Part shown: positions 20,544 through 59,051 of the stretch, in pieces
Layout of the letters: every line of letters starts with the position of its first letter
How positions within the stretch are numbered: the first letter of the stretch is position 1
Assembly (NCBI GenBank): GCA_029706075.1
Contig: JAINUG010000308.1
Span: 894,083 to 958,082 of the forward strand
Reading direction: 5' to 3'
Source of the DNA: Aldrovandia affinis
Taxonomy: Eukaryota > Chordata > Actinopteri > Notacanthiformes > Halosauridae
DNA: 64,000 nucleotides
Made by a program: the position numbers and the translations under genes
The notes under the pieces: generated by a model
What the model saw: the letters and a program-made list of their open reading frames with translations, nothing else
What the model was told of the DNA's origin: nothing
Databases searched by the model: none

Positions 20544-20593
20544 TATTAGGCAGCAAGTCAGTTCTTGAAGTTGATGTGTTGGAAGCAGGAAAA

Positions 20594-21480
20594 ATGGGCA
20601 AGCATAAGGATCTTAGCGACAAGGGTCAAATTGTGATGGCTAGACGACTGGGTCAGAGCATCTCCAAAATGACAGGTCTTGTGGGGTGTTCCCAAAATGC
20701 AGTGGTTAGTACCTACCAAAAGTGGTTCAAGGAAGGACAACCGGTGAACCGGCGACAGGATCATGGGCGCCCAAGGCTCATTGATGCGAGTGGGGAGCGA
20801 AGGCTAGCCCGTCTGGTCCGATCCCACAGAAGAGCTATTGTAGCACAAATTGCTGAAAAATGTAATGCTGGCTATGATAGAAAGGTGTCAGAACACACAG
20901 TGCATCGCAGCTTGCTGCGTATGGAGCTGCATAGCCGCAGACCGGTCAGAGTGCCCATGCTGACCCCTGTCCACCGCCGAAAGTGCCTACAATGGGCACG
21001 TGAGCATCAGAACTGGACCATGGAGCAATGGAAGAAAGTGGGCTGGTCTGATGAATCACGTTTTCTTTTACATCATGTGGATGGCTGGGTGCGTGTGCGT
21101 CGTTTACCTGGGGAAGAGATGGCACCAGGATGCACTATGGGAAGAAGGCAGTGTGATGCTCTGGGCAATGTTCTGCTGGGAAACCTTGGGTCCTGGCATT
21201 CATGTGGATGTTACTTTGACACGTACCACCTACCTAAACATTGTTGCAGACCAAGTACACCCCTTCATGGCAACGGTATTCCCTGATGGCAGTGACCTCT
21301 TTCAGCCGGATAATGCGACCTGCCACACTGCAAAAATTGTTCAGGAATGGTTTGAGGAACATGACAAAGAGTTCAAGGTGTTGAACTTAGCCTCCAAATT
21401 CCCCAGATCTCAATCCGATCGAGCATCTGTGGGATGTACTGGACCAACAAGTCCGATCCATGGAGGCATCACCTCGTAAC
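20594..21480 (+). pseudogene. Tc1 transposase (family X, copy 1)
   Basis: [20 protein letters not shown] begins the paired-type helix-turn-helix DNA-binding half. [12 protein letters not shown] is the GRPR-like linker. The DDE core has VGWSDESRF (first D), FQPDNATCHTA (second D) and the expected third acid region near 21410-21450, which is out of frame. Frame changes occur near 21150 and 21420. The original protein was about 340 aa. It would cut and paste the element at TA sites. Confidence 0.88.
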
Positions 21481-21524
21481 TTACAGGACCTGGAGCTAGG
21501 GTTAGGTTTGGAATTGTGTTTTGG

Positions 21525-21765
21525 TCACTCCCCCAAGACAAGCCAAGGGGAGTCATGCACTGGCACATCACTTGGTATCCCCACCGCCGTATCGTGCTAC
21601 CCACCGTTCGGGTTTTGAGAAGATTTGGAAACGAGCCACGCGAGAATTATGACACAAGACCCAGTTTGCGGTTATGGTGGAGTTTGAATATGAGTTGGAA
21701 TTATGGTTGGTGACAGAGTGTATGTAGCTTTGCAATGGGTGAATGATTGAATAAGAAAATGAAAT
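21525..21765 (-). repeat. retroelement terminal direct repeat, outer copy
   Basis: Direct repeat of 22237-22447, about 710 bp away. Shared text on the + strand: GTCACTCCCCCAAGACAAGC, GGGGAGTCATGCACTGGCAC, GGTATCCCC, GTTCGGG, TTGGAAACGAGCC and GTTTGAATATGA. Penelope elements are known for such tandem pseudo-LTRs. Confidence 0.85.
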
Positions 21766-21969
21766 GAAAAAGAGTCGGTGCAGGAGACTTCGGGACCAGG
21801 CCGAAGGGCTATTCAGCCAGGCATCCCCTCCGTTCCCCCATTCACCTTAACTCAGTGACCTTCAGTGTGTATGCCGGTTCAGAGAATTCAGTCAGAGAGG
21901 GTGTACGGACACAATAAATGTCTTAGGAGGGAGCAGTAGACAAAAACATTTCACTCATAAAATTGGCGG

Positions 21970-22236
21970 TAGGATTGGGGGTAGAAAACCAGAAGAAGGG
22001 GTAAAATAGGGTAAGGGTAGGGTATGATCCAGATTAGGTTGGGGTAACCATTAGAATTATGGTCTTGGTTAGGGTTGGGGTTTGAAAGGGGGTTCCAATT
22101 AGGGTTAAGGGTAAGGTAGGTAAAGGGTCGGGTAGGGTTCAGGTAGGGTTAGGGTTGGGTAGGGATTCAATTTTAGGGTTGGGGTGACCGTTGGGGTTAT
22201 GGCCTTGGTTAGGGTTAGGTTTGGGTTGTAGTCTCG
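21970..22236 (-). repeat. telomere-like TTAGGG-variant array
   Basis: On the + strand the segment is built of AGGGT/TTAGGG variants: GGTAAGGGTAGGGT, GGTTAGGGTTGGGGTT, TTAGGGTTAAGGGTAAGG, GGTAGGGTTAGGGTTGGGTAGG, TTAGGGTTGGGGTGACC and GGTTAGGGTTAGGTTTGGG. The vertebrate telomere repeat is TTAGGG. It lies between the two direct repeats of the retroelement. Confidence 0.8.
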
Positions 22237-22447
22237 GTCACTCCCCCAAGACAAGCCAGGGGGAGTCATGCACTGGCACATCAATGGTATCCCCATCGCT
22301 ATCTCATGATGCCCACTGTTCGGGCTTTGAGGAGACTTGGAAACGAGCCCCGTAAAAAATGGTGACAAGGGACAATGACGTTATTGTGAAGTTTGAATAT
22401 GAAATAGGAATTATAATGGTGACGGAGTGTGAATGAATTTTGGTGAA
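22237..22447 (-). repeat. retroelement terminal direct repeat, inner copy
   Basis: Lies directly after the RT stop on the - strand and repeats 21525-21765 with substitutions and small indels (roughly 80 percent by eye). Followed outward by the telomere-like stretch. Confidence 0.85.
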
Positions 22448-22559
22448 GTTCTTTTTGATCTGAAAATGTAATTGAACCGTTTTGCTGGAGAAAGTGGTGA
22501 TGAATGGGATGACATTTTTGGAGCGTGGCACCTTCTTGTTATGACTATCGTGCAGCTGA

Positions 22560-24148
22560 TTGATGGTAGATGATTTTATTGTTCTCAAAAAGCGTTTTGA
22601 ATACCCCCTTGGCCTGAGTGCCTGAAAGAGGGTTTGTGTGGCTTTGTCAAAATCTGATTTTCCTGTGCATAATCTATGGTACCGGATGATTTGAGATTTA
22701 ATTAGTCATTTGAATGTATGCTTGGGGTGAAAACTAGCCTTATGTAGCAGGGTGTGAGTGTCTGTGGATTTGAAAAAAACTTTGGTTTTGAATCTATGGT
22801 GTCCGTTGTCTGTTGGTGTTAGAAAAACTGTTGTATCCAAGAAGTCTATGGTGTTTTGATTTATTGTATGTTTACAGGTGATCTGTGGGTGATGTGTATT
22901 CATGAGATGTAGGAATTCCTGAAATGAATCCCTACCGTGGTGCCACACTCCAAAAATGTCATCCAAGTATCTATAATAAATGTAGGGTTTGTAATTACAT
23001 TTGAGGAACAGTGTTTCCTCCCACTCTGCCATGTAAATATTGGCATATGCCGGGGCAAACTTTTTGCCCATGGCTGTGCCCTGTATTTGTAGGTAGAATT
23101 GTGAATCGAATTCAAAATCATTGCGGGTTAAACTAATGTGAAGTAGTTGCAAAATATGTTGGTCAGAGCGGGAGGGGTCCGGGTTATTGTCAAGTGCCTG
23201 TTTAACTGCTTTCATGCCAAGGTGTGTCTGTATATTAGTGTAAAGACTATTGATATCTATACTAAAGAGAAAAGAATGTTGTGGAACCTGAACTGCGCTT
23301 AATTTGTCTATAAAATTATAAGTATCTTTTAAATAACTTTTATGTTGTTGGGAAATGGGGTTAAGGAAATGGTCGATGTAGTGGGCAATGTGATATGTTT
23401 CGCTGTCGCAGTCTGAAACAATAGGTCATCCCCTGGGGATCTCCCGAGGGACTGTCCATGCCTGAGGATCTGAATGGATTTTGGGAAGTAAGTAAAATTG
23501 TCTGGGGCGTGGAGTGGGTGGGCCTAGTAAGTAACATAGTTGTTTGAAATTTATAAAGTTGGTATAATATAATTGTTTAAGAATGATTTGGACTTGTGAC
23601 CGGGTTTCTGCCTGTATTGAGTGGGTAAGTTCTATATAGTGTTGTTTGTTATTTAATTGTCTTTTGGCTTCAAAGATGTATTGTTGTGTGTCTTGTATGA
23701 CGATGCCTGAGCCTTTATCGGCTGGTTTTATAACTATGTCCGGGTTATTGCATAATGTCTGTATAGCTGTTCTCTGATCAATAGGTAAATTATCCGCGTC
23801 TATGTGTCTGTTGTTAAAGGGAGTGTTTGAAATCGTGTTGTTTGATGTGATAAGCCGTTTTATTTCATTGTGTAATGTGTTGTTTATTGGTTCCAAAGTT
23901 GATGGAATGATAAATGGTATACGGTTAGTGTTTTGAGTATATTTAAAATGGTCCATTAATTTCAGCTTCCTATTGAAGGCATGAACGTCCCTCCTGAGTT
24001 CCCCACGGTCCGACCCACCTGTCACTGGTGTCGGAATGAAAGTCAGTCCCCTCTCCAGCAATGCCCGCTCCGACCTAGACAGTTTAAAAGATGTAGTGAG
24101 GTTGAAAACATTGGTGTGCCGGCCCATCACGGGTATGCACTTTTCCAC
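22560..24148 (-). pseudogene. Penelope-type reverse transcriptase
   Basis: The N-terminal part (24148-23426) shows FNLTTSFKLSRSERALLERG, FNRKLKLMDHFKY, the block IVIKPADKGSGIVI and FYLLPKIHSD, all hallmarks of Penelope-like RTs. After a frame change near 23430 come RPIVSDCDSE and LFSIDINSLYTNI (first catalytic D). The next part (23215-22706) has YLQIQGTAMGKKFAPAYANI and RYLDDIFGVW with the YLDD box at about 22958-22969. The C-terminal thumb, LIKSQIIRYHRLCTGKSDF and then IPFITTFSSKTVQLHFQIKK, runs to about 22450. A GIY-YIG module should follow in most families but none is seen. It would copy element RNA into DNA at a chromosomal 3' end. Confidence 0.87.
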
Positions 24149-24199
24149 CCTCAGTAGTTTAACTGGTCTAGCCAGAAGTTGAGGATCTGCAATGCTGTC

Positions 24200-24767
24200 G
24201 GACCCGTCCAGTGGATGTGGTCCCTAGCCTCCACCTGAAATCTCAACTTACTGATCTCGGCCAAGTGATTGCCATGGTTAATAATATGATTATTGATTAT
24301 TTGTAGCGTATTTTGTTGTGCTCTGGTCAGGAAGTCCGAATAGTGGATGGGGGTGTATAAATTGTGGCGTTGGGGAAGGCCCCCTTAGCCGCCCTCCACA
24401 TCTGCTGCAACTGTTTGATGGCTGTTTTTAGAGGGTGTTGATCCTTATTGTTAATTCCTACCGATAATATGACTCTCTGCGTATGTGGGTTGGGTGAGAG
24501 TTTGTCCAGAAGATGGGCAATATGTAGGAAATTGGCACCAGGGAAGCTGTCTATTTGTATATATTTATTAGTGAAATAGGGGATTCGACTGAGGTTTGAA
24601 TCCCCTAGAATGACTGTTGGTTTGTGGATCTGAATAGTCCAGTCTACTTGTTTTCGTAACGTGTTCAGATGGCGAAAAGGTTTTTGTGGAGGCCCCCGTA
24701 CAGAGTCCTCGCTCCCATCGGAGGATGAGAGAGAGACATTTGCCAGGGCCAAATTTTGCGTCTCCAC
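24200..24767 (-). pseudogene. SGNH hydrolase-like (esterase) domain of the retroelement
   Basis: Four SGNH blocks appear in order on the - strand. VILGDSNLSRI gives the nucleophile Ser (GDS, about 24597-24605). DSFPGANF gives the block II Gly (about 24539). ILSVGINNKDQ gives the block III GxN (about 24450-24458). RDHIHWTG gives the block V DxxH-type His, at about 24205-24225, reached after a frame change near 24330. Such domains occur in ORF1 of CR1/L2 LINEs, where an ester- or lipid-related role has been suggested. The domain sits directly upstream of the RT. A short overlap with a frame change near 24775 joins it to the N-terminal ORF. Confidence 0.75.
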
Positions 24768-24783
24768 CTGTATGACTGATGTA

Positions 24784-25779
24784 TTATTCTCTGCTATTAT
24801 TCTCGGCCATTAGCACCGTGCTGTATAATTGGGGGGCGGGTCCTATATCATGACCGCGCGGTTGCCGAGGAGAGACCACCGTTGGAATATCCTCTGTGTC
24901 ATCCCTGGTGTTAGGGGGGCTCAGTTTTGGGGATGAACATGGAAATTTATTCTCCTTTATGTTCCCCTGCATCATACCACCCCCTCCACTTTTTATATTG
25001 GGAGTGCCCAGAATCGATGTGGTCCCTTCCCCGGCTTCCACGCGGGGACCGCCCCATAGAAAATCTGCGGAAGGATCAGATGTTATCATATTGGTAATGT
25101 TATGTGTCACTTGGTCCTGTTTTGATAGGGACGGGTCCGACAGAATGCTATCACACACAACAACTGCTACATTGCTCACTGGTGCTCTGTCTCTTACAGG
25201 GGAGGGAAGTCCTGAGCTAGGGAAGTTGGGTTGGTGCTGTCCCTGACCTAAAATCTGAGCCTGGATTGTAATGCCCCTATTCGTCTTCTGGATGGGGGGC
25301 TCTGTTATATTATTATTAGGGGCCTCTTTTACATTGTTGGCTAACATTGCCTCTACTGTGGTAATCGTTGAGGGGGTCAACCTGCGTTTATACCTCACAC
25401 GAGCCCAGAATGTTGCCCTCTGTATAGCCACTGGGTCCCACACATCCACCTTATCCAAAATATCTGCGATAACCCTATCATAATGTGATCTAAGGATCAG
25501 CATGTTACCCTGCATCCAATTTAATGTATTCAGATGAACCTCTTTGCTTGTCTCTTCCAGGGGTGAAGAAGGCTTTATGAATTCTGTCAATTTATTCACC
25601 TGCCTCATCATTCCAGGAGGGAATGAGTTGGACTTGAGGGATTTTACCACTATTTCTGAATGATGAATAGCCTGTATTAATTTGAAATACAATTTGGTCT
25701 GTTTCAGGTCTTTACTAGTTGTTTGTTTGGTGGAAATGTGGGACCCTAAATGTCTCTGTGGGCCAATTAATGATGCCAT
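24784..25779 (-). pseudogene. unrecognised N-terminal ORF of the retroelement
   Basis: A frame of 331 codons beginning MASLIGPQRHLG. The first half is helical and basic (residues about 20-150, with TFWARVRYKRRLTPSTI at about 130-146). The second half is low-complexity, rich in Pro, Ser, Gly and Asn. It ends MAENNSRE, and ENNTSVIQVETQN continues in another frame into the SGNH domain, so the two were probably one long protein. I do not recognise a known fold; there is no GIY-YIG signature. A nucleic-acid-binding role would be inference only. Confidence 0.6.
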
Positions 25780-25847
25780 TTTTAGAAAACACCAGTTTTA
25801 AAACTAAAACCAAGATTAAAAGTGGCTGGTATATTATCTCCTTTAAA

Positions 25848-25895
25848 ATGGCCGCCCCACAGTCGCAGAATGGCCGACCCACAGTGGCAAAATGG
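25848..25895. repeat. short tandem repeat in the retroelement 5' region
   Basis: ATGGCCGCCCCACAGTCGCA, GAATGGCCGACCCACAGTGG and CAAAATGGCC form about 2.5 copies of a 21-22 bp unit. An A-rich stretch (25940-26090) separates it from the element end. Confidence 0.6.
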
Positions 25896-26556
25896 CCAAC
25901 ACACCTAAAAACAGGACCCCTCTAAAACCTAATACCAAAAATGACAGTATTACAATATAGGAGAGTCAAAAAATTGTAAAAAGTAAAAGAATAAAACATT
26001 AAAAAATTAAAAAGATAAACAATAAAATAAAAACCCCTTTAAAACCCTTTAAAACCCAATAAAACCAATAGTAAAAAAGGGGGGAAAAAGACCCTAAGGT
26101 TAAGGTTAGGGTCTGCTGCTAACGTCTTGGTGCCAGATACCACCTTCAGAGGTCTTGTGGAGTCCATGCCTCGACGGGTCAGAGCTGTTTTGGTGGCATG
26201 AGGGGGACCTACACAATATTGGGCAAGTGGTTTTAATGTTGTGGCTGATCGGTGTATATATTACTTACAATCTGTCAATCACTCCACAGTGGCAGAGGCC
26301 ATTGTTAACAATTAACAATATCACAGGCTTTGTATTGAATAACACGAGCTACATGGTTAAGACACCATTCAACACCAAAATATAAAATATTATGTTCCCT
26401 TAATTGAATTAAAAAAATCAATGATATTAAATTATTATTTTTATTTTGCCTTTAGGCTGTAAATAAAACATTTTCCTTTTGCTTTCAATTGACCCTTCGC
26501 TAAACCATGCCCCCCTTAGTTATTGTTGCTAAGTCCGTCAAGCTTTCGGAGCCAGC

Positions 26557-27649: not shown

Positions 27650-28030
27650 CGCAGGGGGCGGCGGATAGCGTAGCGTTCTAACGCACCACAATTTGGCTGG
27701 TCCGATGTGGTGGGCGCTGCCTGTCAGGGACACAGTCCGACACCCGGGTCTCTACCAGACCGAGACCGGCCCTGGTCATCAGCCCCAATCGGGGGTGGCA
27801 TTTGGCTGTCCGCCCCAGGGGGAAGGGGGTGGGTGAGCCGGCTCAGGTTCGTCGTGAAGCACATAAGGAGTCTCCAGAACGTGGGTGGGCAAATTCCGTC
27901 TTGAAGGAAGCGGAATGCGCTGCCCACGGAGAATTAGCTTGCCTTGTAGAGAGGAGCAACGGACCCGTATTGGGAGGGCAAATGGAAACAAATAGAGGGA
28001 ATCATTTGCTACTAAATTGGGAAAAAAATC
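27650..28030 (+). mobile_element. tRNA-headed SINE, copy 1
   Basis: The head GCGGCGGATAGCGTAGCG is tRNA-like. The body shares GGCATTTGGCTGTCCGCC and CCAGGGGGAAGG with the reverse copy at 29150-29516 (TAATTGGCTGTCTGCCTCAG). The tail is CTAAATTGGGAAAAAAATC. No protein is encoded. The head is too diverged to name the parent tRNA. Confidence 0.55.
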
Positions 28031-54094: not shown

Positions 54095-55437
54095 TGGAGA
54101 GTCCTCCTGACATGAACGACTCCAAAAGGAAGAAGTCCCTTCGATGTGAATGACTCGCTGTCTCGTTGCTTCCAAATAACTCAGAAGTTAAAGCTGCGAC
54201 TGTCCATCTCAGACCCACCTGGAAAGGCTGAGGACCACAGTGACTCAGACTCAGAGATTGTCTTTGGGCCTTCTCTCTCCCCCACAGCTTCAAATGAGTT
54301 AAGTGACACTGTCCCTCTACTAGATCAGGATGCTAGCCAGAATACTACCCCTCCCCAGGCCTCTGTCCACAGACCTCAGCCGCGATGATGAGCCCAAACC
54401 TAACCCCTGGGCTTGTTCGACTCTCGTCTCTGAGGCGGCTGCGCCCTGGTCGAACCCGTCCTGCTCATCTCACGGTCATGAAAGGCGGTGTTGTGGAAGC
54501 AGATCGGCTCCACGCCCGGGACTGGAGCTGTCTAACCACTTCACAGCCCTGTTACATGACGAGGCCGAGTTTCCCAGGTTAGCGAGAGGGTCCTCCTCAG
54601 CCTCTCGCCGCTCGATGGTAAAAGCTGCCGCTGCTGCAGCCAGGAGAAAGTCTGCTGCCATACGAAAGAGGAGCGCTGGCCCTGCGAACCTGTGGAGGGG
54701 TGCTGGCTCTACGGAACCTGCAACGGATCTCGTGAACCCTTTGGCTGGCCCTGCGACCCCCACTGCTGATGCTCCCTCTGCCCCCGACCGCTACTGCCTC
54801 TGCCCCCTCTTGCCCTCCGGTGGCGAAAGTGCCCTTTCCTGCCCCCCCAAGCCTACTCGCACCTCCCGTAGGAGTGACCCCCCCCCTCACCTCCCCCCCA
54901 ACCTACCGAGCCCCATCCCACTGCGCTTGTTGTCGGCTCCTCTATGGTGCGCCACGTTGTTGTCCCAAAAGCTGTAACCTACTCCATGCCAGGGGCCACA
55001 GTCTCCGACATAAACTCTGTTATTACCATGCTGATCGAAGACCATCCTCAGGCCTCATCAGTCATCCTTCATGTTGGAGCAAACGACCTCAAGTTTCAAC
55101 AGTCAGAGACACTAAAAAAGCACTTCATGACCCTGATCAACACTGTATCTGAGTCTGGAAAGGCCTGCATTATCTCTGGACCTTTCTCCTCCCCTCGCTA
55201 CGGTGATGTCAAGTACAGCTGAATCTGCAACCTTCACATATGGTTAAAAGGCTACTGCTGCAGCCTGAGTATTCCTTTCATTGACAATTTCACGATGCTC
55301 TGGGACCGAAAAGACCTCTTCGCCAGGGACGGCCTTCACCTAAACAGGGACGGAGCTTGCATGCTATCCTTGTCCATGGACCTGGCCCTAAAGTCCCACG
55401 CCTCGTCCAGATCGTCCCACGCCCCGTCTAGATCCTG
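54095..55437 (+). pseudogene. LINE ORF1 with SGNH/esterase domain
   Basis: A Ser/Asp-rich N-terminus (ISDPPGKAEDHSDSDSE) and a Pro/Ala-rich middle precede the esterase. VVGSSMVRHVVV holds the nucleophile Ser (about 54928-54960), MPGATVSD the block II Gly, VILHVGANDLKFQ the GxND (about 55065-55100), and FARDGLHLNRDGA the DxxH (about 55318-55355). Such ORF1 proteins are typical of the CR1 superfamily. One in-frame TGA lies near 55220 within the esterase, and frame changes occur upstream. Confidence 0.85.
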
Positions 55438-56186
55438 ATGTACTGCAAGTTCGACCCGTTTTAGCTGCCCAACACCCAAACCCATATGCCCCATACTCAT
55501 ACACAGCGGAGTTCATGCCGTCCAGGAACTCATCCATGAGCTCCCCTGCTTCTACCAACTCATTGATTGACTAAGTCTAACTGGACTAAGTAACAATCCT
55601 GAATGGGTAAAGTCATATTCATATTGTAATACTCGGAATTAGCAAACGTATACTGCGTTTTGGCTGCTGGAAGCTACTGGCATGGTCTGCCGTAGTTTGT
55701 TTGTTTACTGCCGTAAAGTTATTGGCACCGTAGTAAAAATGTCGTAATGACTGTGCTGGTTGTAGAGGGAATATTCATTTTTTTCCATCGTTTTCTTTGC
55801 CATCTTAACCAACCCTGGACGGTTCTGTTCTCTTTATTCCCTGAAAGAATGATTATGACCCGAGTTTTTCTTTAAAGCTACTTAAGTTTCTAGATTTCTC
55901 TTATACTGTATTTGGCTACATTGATTATCAAATATTCAAATCAGCTCAGTGTGTAGTGTGGCTTGTTCACCAAATCCCTGGCCTTATATTGGGGTCAGGG
56001 AGCTACGGGCTAGTCTTAAGTATTTTTTTATTTTTTTTTTTTTTCCTTTTTGTTGTATGTCTGTGTGTGTGTTTGTTTGTTTGTTTGTTTTGTATTTACA
56101 TGTTCTCACAAGTGTACTTTTATATCTCATCTCCATTTTGGTTACATACATGGGTGGTGTTACTTTCTACATAAATTGGATGTTCT

Positions 56187-59051
56187 ATGATGGATGGTGT
56201 TAAAGGTCTAAAGATAGTTCATCAGAATATTAGAAGCCTGTTACCTAAAATCGATTCACTTAGGACATGGGTTGTTCAACACATGCCAAGCATAATTACA
56301 TTATCCGAGACCTGGCTTAATGATAAAATAACAAATGATCAAATTAAACTCGAAAATTATGTCCTGTATAGAGAGGACAGATCCTCTAAGAAATGTGGTG
56401 GAGTTGTCACTTATGTTTTATCTAGCTTGGTCTCTGAATTAATCATTCCTGAAGTTGGGCCTCTTGACTTCGAATGTATTTTTGTTAAAGTCACCTTGCA
56501 TAAGAATAAATATATAATTATTGGAAATATTTATAGACCTCCCTCAGCACCTGCAGAATCATTTAACTCTATTAATTCTACTCTAAATTCTATCTCATGT
56601 AATAATGAACTTATAATTCTTGGTGATTTCAACATGAACTGGCTAGCTTCATCACTAACCAAAGTAAAAAATATATTCCATAATTTAAACCTAACCCAGC
56701 TAATTGATAAGCCCACCCGAGTCACAGCTACCAGTGAATCGTTGCTTGACTGGATCCTAGTCTCTCATCCCAACAGATTCTTAAAAGCAGGGGTTCTGTC
56801 TGATTGCCTCAGTGATCATTCTACTGTGTACTGTGTCTGGAAAATTAGACTACCCAAAGCACCACCCAAAGTGATTAAAATCAGGCAATATAAGAAAATG
56901 AATGTTGACCAATTTATAAATGACCTAATTGCAATTAACTGGGACAGGTATCAATTAATACCAAATGTTCATGACTCTTGGGATCTCTTTTACTCTGAAT
57001 TCTTTGAAGTGCTGGATAGGCATGCTCCACTGAAATCTGTAAAAGTTAAGGGAAGTCATCTCCCATGGATAACACCGGATCTCATAAGCGCCTTCAGGCA
57101 TAGGGATCGAGTCTGGGCCAGATTCCGGAAAGACAAGGACCCAGCTGTCTGGGAGGAGTACAAACGGCTGAGAAATGATAGTAAGACCATGGTCAGAAAT
57201 GCCAAATCCAACTATTTTAAAGATTCTTTGGCTCGTGATTTCAAAAATCCCAAGCAATTTTGGAATAAGATTAAAACTATAACTGGTGTATCCAAAAATA
57301 ATATTATTGACCAAATAAAAGTAAATGGTATTTTACGTGATCCACAGCTGATTGCAGTCATTTAACCAGCATTTCTCCTCTGTCACTGCTTTGGCCTCAT
57401 CTGTTCCCGCGACTGATCTCTTCAGCAACAGGCCTCCTAATCATAGCTTTTCTTTCAGGAAAATTTTACCTTTTGAAGTTTGTAATGCCATCAATAGCTT
57501 GAAAGTAAATGGTGGTCCGGGATTAGATGGTTTAGAACCCAAATTCCTCAAACTTGCATCCCATATTCTAATGTACCCATTATGTGATCTGTTTAATATG
57601 TTACTGTCCACATTTGAAATGCCTGATATATGGAAGTGCTCTCGTATTACCCCTTTGTATAAAGGTGGAGATGCACTTGAAATGAATAACTACAGACCAA
57701 TCTCAATTATCTGTTCTGTTGCAAAAGTGTTTGAGAAATTGATATATAATCAGCTTTCTAAATTTCTTGACAAGTACAATATTTTATCACCTCATCAATC
57801 TGGTTTTAGGTCAAAATTCTCAACATCAACAGCTCTATTAAAGCTCACTAATGACATCTGCTCTGCAACTAATGATGGTAAATTAACTGGTGCAATTTTT
57901 ATCGATTTAAGCAAAGCTTTTGACTTAGTTGACCACCACCTACTTCTAGATAAACTTCATTCTGTTGGCCTCTCACGCAATGCTTTACTCTGGTTCAATG
58001 CATACCTTCACAATAGAAAACAATGTGTTGTCATCCAAGGGTTCCAATCCGATACAATGGTCCAAGAACGTGGCGTGCCGCAAGGTTCAACCCTTGGCCC
58101 ACTTCTTTTCTCAATCTTTATTAACAACATACCTTCTGTCTGTTCTGATTCCAGCGTTCATCTGTATGCAGACGATACAGTGTTATATACATCCAAAAAT
58201 AATGTAGCACAGACTCAATCAGCCTTACAATTTGACTTTGAGATACTACAGAAATGGCTTACTGAGAATACATTAATGCTAAACAAATCCAAATCTCTCT
58301 TTATGATTTTTGGTAGTCGTAAAAAACTGAAGGCTATTGAATCGAAGGCATGCGTTATTTTATGTGCCGATAATACACCTCTGCAAAAAGCTGAACGCAC
58401 CAAGTATTTGGGAGTATGGCTTGACTCTCATCTCACATTTAATTTTCATATTACCTCTACTGTTACAAAAATGAATCGCAGCATTGGAGTCCTTTATAGA
58501 GCTAGACACTGTTTTTCCTTCATGGTCAGAAAGAAACTTGTCCAACAACTTATTCTACCTTTAATGGACTATGCGATGTTGTTTATCAAGTTGCCTCCAA
58601 AACCCATCTATCGCCTCTCAATGTGGCTTACAATAGACTCTGCAGATTTGTTCTCGGCTGTCCGTTCAGAACTCATCACTGTACTATGTATCAAACCCTA
58701 GACTGGCCTTCTCCTGCTTTAAGAAGACAGAGACACTGGCTGCAACTGATCTTTAAATGTATCCATGATGACTATCCTTCCTATCTAAAGCAGTTGTTGG
58801 TCCCTTTCTCTTGTACTTATCGTCTAAGACACTCTGTACAGTATTTTTTCACTGTTCCTGCGTTCTCAAAAGCAATGGCCAAGAAATCCTTCATGTTCAA
58901 AGCCCCGTCTGACTGGAATAACCTACCTGTGAACATTCGATCCATATCTTCATTTTACCTCTTTAAAAATGCTCTATGTTCTAACTTTATGGTTAATTGT
59001 ACGTGCTTCATCGTTGGGGCTCCTGCGCTGGTGAGGGGATGTGGGACGTAG
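56187..59051 (+). pseudogene. LINE ORF2: APE endonuclease and reverse transcriptase
   Basis: Endonuclease: KIVHQNIRSLLPKID, ITLSETWLND, NIYRPPSAP, LIILGDFNMNW and CLSDHSTVYC, all blocks present, 56187-57365 open for 392 codons. The RT (57352-58701, 449 codons) has NYRPISIICSVAKVFEKL, SGFRSKFSTSTALLKL, AIFIDLSKAFDLVDH (first D), GVPQGSTLGPLLFSIFIN and LYADDTVLYTS (YADD). The C-terminus YNRLCRFVLGCPFRTHH ... PSDWNNLPVNIRSIS continues at 58623-59051. The first two pieces overlap at 57352-57365 in different frames (about one base change) and a similar change lies near 58600. Otherwise intact. Confidence 0.9.

Follow-up and report, generated by a model that had tools for sequence, protein, structure and literature searches.

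A probable dead copy of a two-ORF Penelope-like retrotransposon with an SGNH hydrolase region in Aldrovandia affinis, and the GIY-YIG endonuclease of its relatives

Does a Penelope-like element (PLE) that carries an SGNH hydrolase region and shows no GIY-YIG endonuclease represent a lineage without that endonuclease, or only an incomplete copy? The question is raised by a 64,000-nucleotide stretch of Aldrovandia affinis DNA (contig JAINUG010000308.1, positions 894,083 to 958,082; hereafter the window), which is the right end of the contig numbered C1810 here; the genome searched comprised 1.22 Gb. The original prediction, made from the letters of the window, placed such an element at 21495-26110. 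These bounds are nearly base-exact: the sequence and a blastn comparison with a second Tc1 copy put the insertion at 21490-26111, as a minus-strand element inside a Tc1 transposon. It is quite probably a dead, 5'-truncated and internally deleted retrotransposon with two open reading frames (ORFs), with the architecture and working proposed below. The missing GIY-YIG domain is a property of this copy and not of its family.

The reverse transcriptase (RT) blocks named in the prediction are present, all in one minus-strand frame (24223-22304) that is interrupted by TGA codons at 23428-23426 and 22708-22706. We take their character to be PLE-like; the Pfam profile RVT_1 matches the middle piece of the RT with an E-value of 1.5e-5 and 25.3 bits, under the 29.6-bit cut-off, and a PDB search with an ORF2 alignment returned nothing at E 0.01. 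The ORF2 remnant (22438-24223, minus strand), delimited by translations, Pfam and blastn, is cut at 22438, where relatives continue into an endonuclease. The RT middle piece has at least 152 genomic matches (150 of the 303 candidates were scored), which fall into a main clade at approximately 40-98% identity and two further groups near 31-37% and 27%. No relatives of it were found in phages, viral contigs or prokaryote genome contigs. The two further PLE-like groups (on C113, C1989, C1778, C1113 and other contigs) have long open frames of up to 779 amino acids (aa).

No GIY-YIG match is found in the window at E 1e-3, so the claim of no visible GIY-YIG domain stands for the copy at hand, but it fails as a trait of the family. 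In relatives, ORF2 runs from the RT into a C-terminal domain within the same frame (C335:6781388-6783604, 739 aa; C2330:11376-13616, 747 aa, equivalent to L032:1376-3616:-), as in endonuclease-bearing PLEs; the window copy is without it. The GIY-YIG profile PF01541 scores 25.2 bits on the 747-aa ORF2, over the 22.6-bit cut-off, and 29.3 bits on its C-terminus alone, to which the C-terminus of the C335 ORF2 is related (tblastn E 1.9e-22). An endonuclease (EN) match follows within 2.5 kb downstream of the RT in 25 of the 41 entered main-clade copies whose RT end is retained, at 427-798 bp in 22 of the 25. This pairing count took in 76 of 152 RT entries and 53 of 110 EN entries; copies at C2178:2414636, C2013:86458, C902:20483 and C1898:340609 were left out of the 41, three with an EN entry downstream and one with none. 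In the 31-37% RT group, EN follows in 3 of 13 entered copies, which is no measure of absence, as the query is diverged there. The lack of GIY-YIG that characterizes Athena and Coprina is thus not a feature of this family.

Nine DNA matches on five contigs (C335, C1359, C2354, C2330 and C902) all stop at window position 22438 in blastn, and therefore mark a deletion in the window copy. A 3'-terminal repeat, R, begins at 22430, whereas in C335 and C1359 it sits approximately 1.9 kb further on. GIY-YIG is missing because the DNA between the RT (22438) and R (22430) was deleted. Over 1774 columns, the C335 copy with GIY-YIG and the window share 92.7% identity. An undescribed PLE lineage that lost GIY-YIG, gained SGNH and perhaps attached to bare telomere ends like Athena would agree with the window copy having no GIY-YIG and having SGNH, and with telomere-like tracts oriented as end-priming would give. 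It is nevertheless very improbable, given GIY-YIG after the RT in most of the entered copies, that of C335 included, and the shared stop of the nine matches; the open RT + EN reading frames refute it for this family. An endonuclease-deficient, Athena-like reading is likewise ruled out by GIY-YIG in the relatives. The undescribed lineage without EN is not supported, since relatives carry GIY-YIG and SGNH in PLEs has already been published, according to the accounts in PMC3905857 and PMC5408684. Of the two findings that the prediction had named as jointly telling against it, a GIY-YIG domain was found, in relatives, and the SGNH match does not fail. A second deletion derivative resembling the window copy is seen at C902:16130-16167, where an internal deletion has joined the ORF1 SGNH region straight to the C-terminus of the RT.

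Upstream of the RT lies the SGNH region. The four blocks that had been reported are all there, but not in one frame: GDSN and GIN are in frame 24809-24327 and DHIH in another, 24384-24151, and there must therefore be at least one frameshift within the domain. The hydrolase domain with its GDSN, PGA and GIN blocks covers 24327-24809 (minus strand; frames, Pfam, family alignment and PDB profile search), and the end of ORF1, with DHIHW in the shifted frame, covers 24151-24384 (minus strand; stop-to-stop frames). The separate ORF of more than 300 codons does exist, as 337 codons at 25797-24784 (stop-to-stop frames), but it is a part of ORF1. In relatives, the N-terminal domain and SGNH form a single frame of 500 and 518 aa, and in the window a frameshift therefore lies between the 337-codon part and SGNH, with the N-terminal domain and linker at 24784-25797 (minus strand). 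A single-sequence structure model of the N-terminal domain had a mean pLDDT of 40 and was not used. The SGNH profile PF13472 matches the window piece at E 9.7e-4, under the cut-off; with an E-value limit of 0.1 it matches each of the 7 family sequences in the alignment, of which the window piece is one, the best value being 3.7e-4. The top PDB match of the SGNH profile is weak (4c1b, "ORF1-encoded protein", E 0.19), with the GDS, PGA and G-N blocks aligned; this is presumably the esterase of the zebrafish retrotransposon ZfL2-1. The S, G, N and H blocks are found in most relatives as GDSN, PGA, GIN and DNIH or DHIH, the exceptions being DEMY in place of DNIH at locus L036 and PRA in place of PGA at locus L039. 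The NPNPN repeats of the ORF1 linkers at C2330:25509-27398 and C902:23488-24792 are translated from telomere-like CCTAACC sequence, whose strand sense agrees with that of the tracts separating the elements.

SGNH and RT travel together across the genome, as the prediction had proposed to check. The SGNH query gave 98 candidates, all scored, with 80 matches that merge to 66 places, one of them the window. At 47 of these the same strand has, downstream, a main-clade RT within 3 kb or an EN within 4.5 kb, at 33 the RT is 846-939 bp downstream, and 65 share their contig with an entered PLE match (91 of 152 RT and 39 of 110 EN entries were taken into this count). SGNH and RT therefore belong to one element. 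The window also holds a second SGNH-like ORF at 54878-55219 (plus strand), with VVGSSMVR and HVGANDL blocks, upstream of frames resembling a long interspersed nuclear element (LINE) at 56175-58698 (plus strand), as read from translations. The PLE SGNH query misses this LINE-linked ORF at E 0.001, and the two SGNH types in the window are therefore far apart.

A hammerhead motif, YCCYCTGAAGAAGC..GCGAAACGTYRGGA, precedes ORF1 in relatives. It occurs at 14 places in approximately 255 kb, the window and the fetched sequences together, all in the sense of the arrays described below, and is not found in the window element. The pattern describes a motif without helix III, and was loosened and written after examples had been seen; an earlier pattern in which both a helix III pair and closure of stem II were required had no matches. 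One place, at 59725 of C902, was judged to be chance from its long middle part. In nine copies with ORF1 following, the distance from hammerhead to ORF1 is 476-815 bp. Across 12 of the 14 places, 84% of cells in the pairing are standard and five pairs are changed on both sides, while slid versions reach at most 49%. A stricter pattern has six genome-wide matches, all on contigs with PLE entries, and none in the reversed control. At 8 of 13 hammerheads CCCTAA lies within 150 nt upstream, and TTAGGG at none. PLE ribozymes are usually without helix III, according to the account in PMC6155905. By its motif and pairing, with no Rfam match, the present one agrees with this minimal type.

The element is accompanied by CCCTAA-like tracts with a strong strand bias. 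In 30 loci of +/-1.5 kb, CCCTAA occurs 175 times and TTAGGG 12 times in element sense; 24 of the 25 untied loci favour CCCTAA and 5 of the 30 are tied, with the loci overlapping, so that a sign test overstates the difference. As controls, counts were taken in reverse orientation, in the remainder of the window, at 40-60 kb of C902 and in Markov sequences. Rotations of CCCTAA against the opposite strand number 656/46 in C2330, 538/26 in the first 40 kb of C902 and 927/18 in C1359, as compared with 66/55 in the window outside the element and 41/16 at 40-60 kb of C902; first-order Markov sequences give approximately 164 for C2330 and 64 for C1359. Copies on these contigs stand head to tail (all minus in C2330, nearly all plus in the C902 array, all plus in C1359), which may correspond to the tandem arrangement with pseudo-long terminal repeats (pLTRs) of endonuclease-bearing PLEs. 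A CCTAACC stub closes R: with up to 4 mismatches allowed, 8 of 8 R ends carry AAACCTAACC and 6 of 8 carry CCTAACCC. Two R ends go straight from the stub into non-telomeric DNA, namely Tc1 in the window and AT-rich sequence in C2330.

The architecture assembled from relatives is a minimal hammerhead, a 5' untranslated region (UTR) of approximately 0.5-0.8 kb, ORF1 (N-terminal domain, low-complexity linker and SGNH), ORF2 (PLE-type RT and GIY-YIG), and a 3' UTR with R and a CCCTAA-like tract. In the proposed working, the hammerhead would cut transcripts of tandem copies into units, and ORF1 may bind or pack the RNA. SGNH might play an accessory part involving lipids or membranes, by analogy with the proposal for ZfL2-1, whose esterase is active and lipid-binding in the account of PMC3905857. 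ORF2 would nick DNA and start cDNA synthesis internally on the transcript, within the CCCUAA tract close to its 3' end. First-strand cDNA would thereby be continuous with the G-rich (TTAGGG-sense) strand, and head-to-tail copies separated by one-strand telomere-like tracts would be the outcome. The window copy may have moved or been captured into Tc1, carrying short telomere-like stubs at both ends. Read from sequence, the layout of the relatives, the joint travel of the domains, the ribozyme motif, the strand bias and the window deletion are observations; that cDNA starts in the CCCTAA-like tract we infer. The Anolis Poseidon PLE is described in PMC11167929 with an internal start of reverse transcription in vitro and tandem pLTRs.

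Several observations weigh against this reading. The SGNH matches are all under the Pfam cut-off, and PF01541 gives no score on the C335 C-terminus alone. No EN entry follows in 16 of the 41 entered copies, for which decay, divergence or scoring limits may account. As regards the ribozyme, further pair types, one of five covariation measures, are no better than in shuffles (448 of 500 as high), and the Rfam hammerhead models match nothing at gathering cut-offs in nine loci and nothing in the surroundings of one copy with E-values of up to 5 allowed. CCCTAA is missing within 150 nt upstream of 5 of 13 hammerheads, and no CCCTAA block accompanies the plus-strand copies of C335 across the 20 kb fetched.

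A further and tentative step would make telomeric repeats the home of this PLE. Here a vertebrate PLE that keeps GIY-YIG and an SGNH-bearing ORF1 would pair the CCCUAA tract beside its hammerhead with the TTAGGG strand, start reverse transcription there, and build strand-uniform telomeric or subtelomeric arrays. We consider this rather unlikely. As to attachment at chromosome ends, the tracts are strand-consistent and some copies are near contig ends, while others are deep inside contigs (C335, C890, C2244), and a copy near the right contig end of C1939 has the orientation opposite to that expected from end-priming. The tracts are also degenerate and partly element-borne. Among the first 100 of 466 listed (TTAGGG)5 places, which reach C535 only, so that C902 and C1359 could not appear, 92 fall on contigs for which no RT, EN or SGNH match is listed and the other 8 (C113, C180) are more than 1 Mb from one. 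Of these 100 places, 65 lie at C365:6459-24298, in reverse orientation at 6.4-8 kb and forward at 12.5-24.3 kb, on a contig with no listed copy of this PLE.

The alternative with about an even chance of being correct is that the CCCTAA-like tracts are a minisatellite borne by the element itself, in the 3' UTR, the ORF1 linker and the RT-EN linker, and amplified in tandem, telomeres having no targeting role. Degenerate tracts that are alike between copies, tracts within ORF1 itself (the NPNPN linkers) and the sole insertion with a known uninterrupted site, which is in Tc1, agree with it. Pure runs at least five units long were present in one of eight fetched contigs, reaching 18 units in C1359 and at most 3 in the other seven; this, together with the 92 of 100 (TTAGGG)5 places apart from any listed match, lowers the odds of a telomere home and raises those of the minisatellite, which the distance of the remaining 8 places also favours. 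It is less readily reconciled with the long pure runs of C1359, which look like real telomeric DNA and are met by one R end, and with copies or arrays that lie less than 60 kb from the end of a contig (C902, C846, C1810). The arrays could also, with a lesser though appreciable probability, come from unequal recombination and segmental duplication in subtelomeres rather than from repeated retrotransposition: identical flanks recur in C2330, where the hammerheads at 28030 and 16569 share 70 upstream bases, although the identity of neighbouring C2330 copies to the window RT varies between 51 and 94%, and their truncation points differ.

The insertion into Tc1 can be compared with its uninterrupted form, supplied by the second Tc1 at 48976-47853. 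The left part of the host Tc1 (20544-21489, plus strand) is 97% identical over 959 columns to the second copy at 48976-48018 (minus strand), and the right part (26112-26261, plus strand; blastn match 26108-26261) is 92.5% identical to 48013-47853. The uninterrupted site has 600 genomic places with up to 2 mismatches. On our own reading of these alignments, insertion would have cost approximately 8 target bases, with no target duplication visible. At the 3' junction (21490-21510, minus strand) the element ends in ...CAATTCCAAACCTAACCCTA, followed by approximately 7 further bases and then Tc1; at the 5' junction (26092-26111, minus strand) sequence and alignment show telomere-like CCCTAACCTTAACCTTAGGG separating Tc1 from the truncated 5' end. 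A 5' end at the hammerhead cut (GGGTC resembling GGGACC) was ruled out by alignment, which puts the truncation approximately 480 bp inside the 5' UTR. The 5' UTR remnant (25798-26091, minus strand; alignment to C335, C2354 and C902) is missing its outer part with the hammerhead.

At the other end of the window copy, all on the minus strand, the first copy of R (22207-22430; repeat finding and blastn) is the one joined to the RT by the deletion. It is followed by a degenerate CCCTAA-like tract, TTAGGG-like on the plus strand (21950-22225; sequence and tract scan), by segment U (21722-21942), which precedes R in other copies (blastn to C1359, C2330, C902 and C335), and by the second copy of R (21497-21721), detected by repeat finding, 80% identical to 22210-22430 and found beside CCCTAA tracts elsewhere. 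There is no clear second copy of the element within the window. Within the RT, a 26-base inverted repeat (22507-22532 and 22939-22964) is 96% complementary, the codons of YLDDIFGVWH being the reverse complement of those of VPRSKNVIP approximately 400 bases downstream; the C335 copy has retained the two peptides, and an RNA hairpin may be conserved.

PLE RTs and telomerase share ancestry. If the telomere home were true, it would be a second route by which PLEs, as telomerase relatives, came to live on telomeres; the telomere-bound PLEs in the literature covered are without endonuclease. A fish-like PLE that combines an endonuclease with an esterase ORF1, and that has a tract complementary to telomeres at the end where cDNA starts, would make it possible to ask in vitro whether base pairing, nicking or chance brings such RTs to telomeric DNA. 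Such a PLE could also explain the telomere-like repeats that bound GIY-YIG PLEs in sturgeon. What is new to us is the setting, as it appears from sequence: head-to-tail copies with strand-consistent CCCTAA-like tracts, a CCTAACC stub that closes R, and a putative hammerhead before ORF1. In the open-access literature searched, no paper was found that joins SGNH, GIY-YIG, a ribozyme and telomere-like arrays in one PLE.

Parts of this combination are known from other systems. In 2013, Schneider et al. (PMC3905857) described SGNH esterases from Penelope-like elements of RepBase, and by that account they resemble the present case in an SGNH esterase in the PLE ORF1 with active-site residues kept; unlike here, telomere-like tracts or arrays are not mentioned in the sections on these elements. 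The present family may be among them. Anolis Poseidon PAc, as described in PMC11167929, shares RT and a C-terminal GIY-YIG in one ORF, tandem pLTRs, a hammerhead and an internal RT start, but the description of its structure includes no SGNH ORF and no telomere-like tract. In the lake sturgeon, degraded GIY-YIG PLEs bounded by TTAGGG-like repeats provide a likeness in fish, while SGNH is absent from the main text of the report (PMC12031113). GDSL/SGNH ORFs in rotifer Athena PLEs were reported in 2017 (PMC5408684), where the rotifer and LINE esterases are judged to be independent captures. According to that account, the Athena/Terminons of bdelloid rotifers are similar to the present family in the PLE RT, in the GDSL/SGNH ORFs of some families and in a link to telomeres, and differ in that Athena is without endonuclease, whereas the present family has one.

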